Positions 36,914 to 38,122 of a stretch of 64,000 nucleotides of DNA are shown in pieces. The stretch lies in contig JAGMVK010000003.1 in the NCBI GenBank assembly GCA_020747065.1, positions 3,348,001 to 3,412,000 on the forward strand. Reading direction: 5' to 3'. The first letter of the stretch is position 1; each line of letters begins with the position of its first letter. A program made the position numbers and the translations under genes. The stretch is from Cadophora sp. MPI-SDFR-AT-0126. Taxonomy: Eukaryota; Ascomycota; Leotiomycetes; Helotiales; Ploettnerulaceae. Under the pieces are notes generated by a model, which saw only the letters and a program-made list of their open reading frames with translations, did not search any database and was not told the DNA's origin.

Positions 36914-37341
36914 TGAGTGGGTGGTTGGTGGCAGCGCTTTCGAGCTGGTGCTATAACATCCACTCAAATCTGAATAAGTAAGTCGTATCGAATGAAAGAG
37001 AATCACTGTCTTGAGTATCAGATTCCGCGTGTTTCCATTATTCATAATATTTTGATACTTGAAGTTCTCAAGACTGAGACTACGTATATTTTGTGATCTA
37101 CGATTTCTCTGGAACAACTTTCTTTAACTTACATACGCTGTCTGAAGCAGAAAGAGAGAAACCTGTCAAATCTGGGGAAAGCAAGTATGTAAAAAACGCA
37201 GAGTAGACTTCTGACGAAGCGAGTTACAATGGGAAACTTCTCGTCGAACCTCCATAGAGCCAAAAGAAAAGAAATTGTAAGTATCAAGGAATCATGTTAA
37301 AAGACTGGGTCATCATCTCAAAAAGAGACAAAAATAAACAT
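36914..37341. other. intergenic between GH93 and tRNA-Gly
   Basis: Holds the GH93 3' UTR. The T-rich run of the tRNA-Gly terminator lies at its right edge. Confidence 0.4.
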
Positions 37342-37475
37342 TGCGTTCGCCGGGAATCGAACTGTTTCTTATTAGCTTTGAACTTCCTGTATTCCAGAGT
37401 GATGAAACGTACCCCGGGGCCCATCGAAGTTGTGTGAATTGGCAACGATGGATTTTACCACTAAACCACAAACGC
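37342..37475 (-). tRNA. tRNA-Gly(GCC) with anticodon intron and 51-nt T-arm insertion
   Basis: Acceptor arm 37475-37469 pairs with 37349-37343 (one G-U), discriminator A at 37342. The A box TGGTTTAGTGG is intact. Anticodon stem CATCG/CGATG; anticodon GCC at 37443-37441. A 12-nt intron (37439-37428) follows the base 3' of the anticodon, the canonical nuclear place. A second insertion, 37412-37362 (51 nt), lies between the T-stem 5' strand CCGGG and the T-loop TTCGATT; it begins GTACGT, ends ACAG, contains GCTAAT and its ends can pair (GTTTC/GAAAC). Removing both leaves exactly 71 nt with a perfect CCGGG/CCCGG T stem, the normal size for this tRNA. The insertion splits the B box. On this strand a run of T follows the gene as a terminator. 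It may be an intron-bearing gene or a disrupted copy. Confidence 0.85.
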
Positions 37476-38038
37476 TTTTGGCAGGTGACTCGCTGCTGAC
37501 TTGAAGAAAATTGTCTTATTTAGATAATGAAAGGGGATAGTCACTTCGAATATTTCGAAAGGATCTTTGTGTGCAGGGTGGAAACTTGTACAGGGATGTG
37601 AGAATAAGCGAGGACCCATTGGAATAGAGAATTCCTGTGCATGAGCCAGAGCAATAAGGACTTGAAATAGCTTTATGGAAATCCTCTTGAGGGCCAGCAG
37701 CCTATCAAGCTGAGTGAAAAAAGGCTCGTTTGTATCGAAAAGATATGTGATGTGAGAAACAGTTCCACCCCGGTCACGACGTAAAGCACTTTGACAATCA
37801 AGCAAAAAAATGAAAGCCGGTGCTCAAGAAAGGGGACCTAGTAACGAGCCGTCTCTGAACATTAGTATCTGTAAAAATATGAGACTAGGAGTGTGTCAAG
37901 CACTTCAAAAAATAGCGGATTAGTTATCCAATATCTATATGGGCCATTTGACTCGCCATTTCCCACAATCACAGTCCAAAATTTCATCAACTTCTTGTAT
38001 CCAACTATTCACTTACACGACACCAAAAAGCAAGAATA
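37476..38038. other. intergenic between the two tRNA genes
   Basis: Upstream of both divergent tRNA genes. One 114-codon minus-strand frame is not supported by any motif. Confidence 0.4.
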
Positions 38039-38122
38039 TCTTTGATGGTCTAGGGGTCATGATTTCCGCTTGTCATTCATGACAAATCGCGGGAGACCGG
38101 GGTTCGAATCCCCGTCAGAGAG
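38039..38122 (+). tRNA. tRNA-Asp(GTC) with 12-nt anticodon intron
   Basis: Acceptor TCTTTGA (38039-38045) pairs with TCAGAGA (38115-38121, one G-U), discriminator G. A box TGGTCTAGGGG and B box GGTTCGAATCC are intact. Anticodon stem TCCGC/GCGGG; anticodon GTC at 38072-38074. The intron is 38076-38087, one base 3' of the anticodon, and its TGAC can pair with the anticodon GTCA, as in typical nuclear tRNA introns. Spliced length is 72 nt. A T-run terminator follows near 38150. Confidence 0.95.

Follow-up and report, generated by a model that had tools for sequence, protein, structure and literature searches.

The 51-nt insertion that breaks the T arm of a tRNA-Gly(GCC) gene in the window (the whole 64-kb stretch of DNA analysed) is, judging from its sequence, very probably a spliceosomal intron of the U2 type and of small size. 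At least 22 such insertions lie in 18 tRNA genes of this genome, that of the root-dwelling fungus Cadophora sp. MPI-SDFR-AT-0126 (Leotiomycetes, Helotiales, Ploettnerulaceae). Many tRNAs of the fungus would probably need the mRNA-splicing machinery besides the usual tRNA enzymes. The spliceosome-type reading already proposed in the initial annotation is supported by the recurrence of the same anatomy (22 insertions in 18 tRNA genes, and two U6 genes), by the constraint on the exons and by the retention of terminators.

A tRNA-Gly(GCC) Gene With an Anticodon Intron and a Probable Spliceosomal Intron

The features of the gene and of its surroundings are the following.

37342..37475, minus strand: two-intron tRNA-Gly(GCC) gene, 134 nt (sequence, and ARAGORN on the spliced form)
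37440..37475, minus strand: exon 1, 36 nt, with the acceptor 5' strand, D arm, anticodon GCC (37441-37443) and A37 (sequence, ARAGORN)
37428..37439, minus strand: ordinary anticodon-loop intron (37/38), 12 nt (ARAGORN on the spliced form)
37413..37427, minus strand: exon 2, 15 nt, with the anticodon stem 3' strand, variable loop and T stem 5' strand (...CCGGG) (sequence, ARAGORN)
37362..37412, minus strand: spliceosomal-type intron, 51 nt, at the G53/T54 border (signals; site shared with two paralogues)
37407..37412, minus strand: 5' splice site GTACGT (sequence)
37371..37375, minus strand: branch-site motif CTAAT, with its first base 14 nt from the intron end (sequence)
37362..37364, minus strand: 3' splice site CAG (sequence)
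37342..37361, minus strand: exon 3, 20 nt, with the T loop, T stem 3' strand, acceptor 3' strand and discriminator (sequence, ARAGORN)
37353..37363, minus strand: contiguous B box AGTTCGATTCC, formed by the last AG of the intron and exon 3, one mismatch from GGTTCRANNCC
37458..37468, minus strand: A box TGGTTTAGTGG, intact
37515..37521, minus strand: upstream AAATAAG element, common to other tRNA genes
37330..37334, minus strand: T5 run, likely Pol III terminator

The sequence and coordinates of the GT-AG insertion, described in the initial annotation as lying between the T-stem 5' strand and the T loop, were confirmed (G53|T54), as were its GTACGT start, its CAG end and the CTAAT motif. Removal of both introns leaves 71 nt; ARAGORN called tRNA-Gly(GCC) once the 51-nt insertion was omitted and gave no call when it was kept. 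Neither did the ARAGORN run on the 64-kb window call this gene, and the window gave zero Rfam matches at gathering scores, so that the neighbouring tRNA-Asp was missed by that search as well. This tRNA-Asp(GTC) gene, which has an anticodon intron and lies at 38039-38122 on the plus strand, 563 bases from the tRNA-Gly gene and in divergent orientation, appears in the ARAGORN output as tRNA-???. A duplication shared by the Gly/Asp pair of the window and contig C1 was considered and rejected, since gene order differs and the match is limited to the two tRNAs and the immediate flanks of the Gly gene (about 28 nt on the upstream side, 24 nt on the downstream side). An exact pattern of the Gly 5' half had zero matches in viral_contigs and genome_contigs.

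Interrupted tRNA Genes in the Genome

A DNA search of the genome (54 Mb) detected six Gly(GCC) loci, and the comparison with other genes of this type, suggested in the initial annotation, gave a divided result. An insertion at 53|54 is present in three of them, the window gene (51 nt), C11:919010-919162 (52 nt) and C6:907227-907350 (49 nt), and absent from the copies on C1, C2 and C12, in which the T arm is unbroken and an anticodon intron is present. The gene on C6 carries a second insertion, of 51 nt, between nt 8 and 9. Insertions with the same site and the same signals in two further Gly(GCC) genes indicate that the one in the window is more than chance. Besides this trio at 53|54, 19 insertions of the type were found, in the C6 Gly gene (at the other site) and in 15 further tRNA genes.

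The census was based on a scan with RF00005, which gave at least 52 matches, 49 of them above the cut-off (a lower bound, 62 of 1988 candidates having been scored), and was extended by DNA searches with the exons of 29 tRNA types. The 69 recognised tRNA genes comprise 50 without interruption outside 37/38, which served as controls, one near-duplicate tRNA-Ser on C27, not counted as a control, and 18 interrupted genes, which together hold at least 22 insertions. Anticodons were read by eye wherever ARAGORN misplaced the anticodon intron, and insertions were recognised on visual inspection of the sequences and verified with a script; outside 37/38 only the GT-AG type was noticed, in a reading by eye that was not systematic for other kinds. 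The 22 introns occupy 13 distinct sites of the cloverleaf, numbered according to our own count, and none is at position 37/38.

Gly: 53|54 (three introns), 8|9 (one)
Ile(AAT): 6|7 (two), 5|6 (one)
Arg(TCT): 6|7
Met: 46|47
Ala(AGC): 50|51 (C12 gene), 58|59
Arg(TCG) and Arg(ACG): 55|56 in each
Thr(AGT): 15|16 (two), 53|54 (one)
Thr(TGT): about 16|17
Pro(TGG): 59|60 (two)
Ser(GCT): 15|16, 28|29, 42|43

Two introns each are found in the Gly and Thr(AGT) genes of C6, and the maximum of three, in addition to an anticodon intron, in the Ser(GCT) gene of C33 (L076). The interrupted genes are spread over 12-13 contigs (C1, C3, C4, C6, C7, C8, C11, C12, C13, C18, C23, C33, C34), and a pattern repeated in 18 genes, with splice signals every time, argues against an assembly or sequencing error, which we consider extremely improbable even though the genome does contain suspect sequence: the small contig C27 holds the near-duplicate tRNA-Ser, with single-base indels. 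This copy (L075, C27:29722-29826) is close to that of locus L041, and C27, of 32,709 bases, is perhaps a poorly corrected duplicate contig.

Genes of this kind are overlooked by tRNA finders; ARAGORN called five of the 18 in unspliced form, none with the right introns. Model R2 recovers the interrupted genes in the loci supplied to it, parts of which were included in its training set; its weak extra matches in L028 and L004 are not tRNAs.

Splice Signals and Intron Anatomy

All 22 insertions have the form GTNNG...AG (18 of them with GTRNGT) and contain CTRAY, whose first base lies 13-21 nt from the 3' end; in 18 it reads CTAAY. In dinucleotide shuffles (n = 2000) CTRAY at this distance occurred in a mean of 0.85 and a maximum of 4 of the 22. 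Each insertion can be placed in one to three equivalent ways, exactly one of which gives GT-AG borders. Lengths are 49-60 nt (median 52), except for two introns of 96 and 116 nt. The likeness of the window insertion to introns of protein genes, pointed out in the initial annotation, was borne out by four mRNA introns of this genome (46-67 nt) that share the signals and anatomy of the tRNA insertions, two of 49 and 46 nt in STE12, one of 51 nt in CAF1 and one of 67 nt in the ribosomal protein S17 gene (RPS17). By these signals the spliceosome would be the only known splicing machine that fits.

Introns at 37/38 of tRNAs are removed by a dedicated endonuclease and a ligase. In 32 listed anticodon introns of this genome, whose ends are approximate, lengths range over 10-40 nt, GT and AG stand near the ends in just one, and CTRAY occurs anywhere in four. 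These figures, together with the fact that cleavage by the tRNA splicing endonuclease would leave GT-AG and CTRAY unexplained, weigh against the idea that the insertions are ectopic introns cut by that enzyme through a bulge-helix-bulge, as in Cyanidioschyzon merolae. Non-canonical intron sites are indeed known in this red alga and in a cryptomonad nucleomorph (PMC3978253); however, when the central helix, the only helix scored, was sought at the GT-AG borders, all 4 of its 4 bp were formed in none of the 22, and we regard this explanation as very improbable.

Miniature or degenerate group I introns have even less to recommend them and appear exceedingly unlikely. Group I introns require a U at the end of the 5' exon, and T ends the 5' exon in just six of the 22 cases and is absent in 16; in addition, a fixed branch-site motif and GTNNG would not be expected of them. 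The resemblance is one of size, since introns of 56-81 nt are described for fungal rRNA genes (PMC3160393).

Three results, on precursor folds, T runs and a combined motif, are neutral towards the spliceosomal reading or speak against it. The pairing of the intron ends (GTTTC/GAAAC) pointed out in the initial annotation was absent from the predicted fold of the precursor, the stability of which does not exceed that of shuffles (z 0.02); in neither of the two genes folded was the precursor more stable than shuffles. T runs are not significantly depleted in the introns (T4, 5 vs 5.4; T5, 0 vs 1.5). The motif CTAAYN{5,12}AGTTCRANYCC has six matches in the genome (three Gly genes, one S17 mRNA intron and two unrelated sites) vs seven for the reversed control and thus gives no genome-wide signal on its own. 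The bodies of introns at the same site have mostly diverged: among seven same-site pairs, three (Gly C11/C6, Ile C18/C1 and Pro C7/C3) were weakly more similar than shuffles (9 to 23 of 1000) and four were not. The 116-nt intron of a tRNA-Pro gene (L065, C3:320117-320189 and downstream) holds a long AG microsatellite, and the acceptor and T stems of this gene are unchanged with respect to the other interrupted Pro gene.

Condition of the Exons, Promoters and Terminators

Spliced in silico, all 18 genes were called as tRNAs by ARAGORN, with Met read as Leu and one Pro as anticodon GGG, misreadings due to a misplaced anticodon intron. In the acceptor and T stems of the 18 genes, 214 of 216 pairs are formed; the two exceptions, C-T in two Thr(AGT) genes, are the same in the intact copy. 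Compared with intact paralogues, one per isotype, these stems show 17 compensatory changes, five one-sided changes that keep the pair and none that breaks a pair, although independent events are fewer than these counts, as the two Thr(AGT) genes, which have the same reference, share two of these changes. In L054 and L055 compensatory changes fall in the same acceptor stem that the intron interrupts. Nine genes (three Gly, two Ile, Met, two Pro and Ser) show zero changes in these stems, which could also be explained by gene conversion from intact copies.

All 18 interrupted genes have a run of at least five T within 60 nt downstream, as do 44 of the 50 uninterrupted ones; in random windows the frequency is 4.9%. 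An AAATAAG-like element precedes interrupted and uninterrupted tRNA genes alike; ATAAG was found 15-75 nt upstream of 11 of 18 and 35 of 50 genes, respectively, and in 3.6% of random windows, seven of the 18 being without it (for L071 the upstream sequence is only 66 nt). Contrary to the initial annotation, the insertion hardly splits the B box: as introns at 53|54 end in AG, AGTTCGATTCC is preserved in the unspliced DNA of three Gly genes and one Thr gene, and in the window gene this box is one mismatch from the consensus. The best B-box match has at most two mismatches in 16 of the 18 unspliced genes, with L057 and L065 matching elsewhere in the gene. Two Arg genes interrupted at 55|56, L061 (C1:1727354) and L063 (C8:259874), have lost the B box in their unspliced DNA and are also without upstream ATAAG, and only its 5' part is kept in the unspliced Pro and Ala(C34) genes. 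Transcription is least well supported for these Arg, Pro and Ala(C34) genes.

The loss of the B box from the DNA of two Arg genes is one of two observations favouring the view that insertions have turned the interrupted copies into pseudogenes, with the uninterrupted copies supplying the tRNAs. The other is that uninterrupted copies are present for every isotype with an interrupted gene, partly by design, since the searches started from exons of intact genes; the intact Gly(GCC) genes elsewhere, which the initial annotation had associated with a pseudogene, do exist (C1, C2 and C12). The state of the genes speaks otherwise: stem pairs form almost without exception, with compensatory changes absent from the intact copies and no broken pair, terminators are retained throughout, signals and exons are kept where most of the intron body has diverged, and splice signals in all insertions are not what random ones would be expected to carry. 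Altogether, disruption into pseudogenes seems improbable.

A Possible Route to the Mature tRNA

With spliceosomal introns, the whole gene would be transcribed by Pol III from the A box, the nearly intact B box and the upstream AAATAAG, and transcription would stop at the T run. The spliceosome would recognise GTNNG, CTRAY and AG, and the joining of the exons, with removal of the intron in the cell, would rebuild the cloverleaf, in the window gene with a 5-bp T stem and a 7-nt T loop. RNase P, RNase Z and the modification enzymes would then act, and the tRNA splicing endonuclease would excise the 37/38 intron. RNase P, RNase Z and the tRNA endonuclease recognise the folded tRNA body, so that removal by the spliceosome probably comes first. 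The introns may have been gained through reverse splicing or by transfer from other introns, reverse splicing being a possible origin of the introns in tRNA genes.

Relation to Known Systems

Nuclear tRNA introns are described as located exclusively at 37/38 (PMC3978253). The canonical introns at this position also interrupt tRNA genes, many of them the same genes as the insertions reported here, which differ from them in position and length and in the GT-AG/CTRAY combination that the canonical introns do not have. The introns of C. merolae and of the cryptomonad nucleomorph are alike in being nuclear or nucleomorph and outside 37/38; however, those of C. merolae carry a bulge-helix-bulge (PMC3978253), whereas here the central helix was found in 0 and the spliceosomal signals in 22 of 22 insertions.

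Closer parallels exist in other RNA genes. As of 2017, frequent interruption by an intron was known, among small structured RNAs, for U3 and U6 alone (PMC5832005), and the U6 intron of fission yeast is known to be spliced (PMC10484740). The mRNA-type introns of fungal U6 resemble those described here in that a short GT-AG intron with a branch site lies in a small Pol III gene, and both occur in this genome. Unlike them, the present insertions have a tRNA host with internal A and B boxes, affect many genes and sites, reach up to three per gene and coexist with ordinary anticodon introns. Introns of fungal U3 snoRNA are likewise short, GT-AG and within a structured RNA gene, but their host is not a tRNA. 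The ectopic spliceosomal introns in the rDNA of lichen fungi are similar as regards Ascomycota and a gene outside Pol II, and differ in that the host is a Pol I rRNA and not a Pol III tRNA gene; yeast removes a spliceosomal intron of this kind from Pol I rRNA (PMC8527467).

Within the titles and listed abstracts of open-licence papers in PubMed Central, no report of spliceosomal introns in tRNA genes was found; precedents exist in U6, U3 and rRNA, and the tRNA case may have been mentioned before in subscription papers or bioRxiv preprints. If the interpretation is right, the mRNA spliceosome would process Pol III transcripts, rebuilding the acceptor, D and T arms of tRNAs, and tRNA genes could acquire spliceosomal introns and retain them. 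Paralogues that differ in the presence of an intron at a given site would provide material for the study of intron gain and loss.

Isotypes Without a Recognised Gene

Phe, Tyr, His, Asn and Glu have no gene among the 69 recognised (62 of 1988 RF00005 candidates scored), and queries made for these five isotypes matched only this genome's own Val and Gly exons, which were part of the same query, or nothing. This absence would be expected if all their genes were interrupted beyond recognition; the genes may indeed all be interrupted, or may have been missed by a census with this number of scored candidates. A plausible, although tentative, extension is that translation in this fungus is spliceosome-dependent, some amino acids being served only by tRNA genes with spliceosomal introns. 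In that case, splicing capacity would couple mRNA processing to tRNA supply.

U6 and 5S Genes of the Genome

Introns of the same design were detected in two U6 genes. One locus (L081, C11:486589-486742) has two of them, and its score of 38.6 bits falls short of the cut-off (44), which is what an interruption would lead one to expect; another (L078, C38:2221085-2221190) has one. A further U6-like locus (L079) is without intron, and L080 is a degenerate U6-like copy; as 47 of 3418 candidates were scored, the genome holds at least these loci. For 5S rRNA at least 26 matches were obtained (47 of 2664 candidates scored), each of 119-121 nt, a length which indicates that these copies are uninterrupted.
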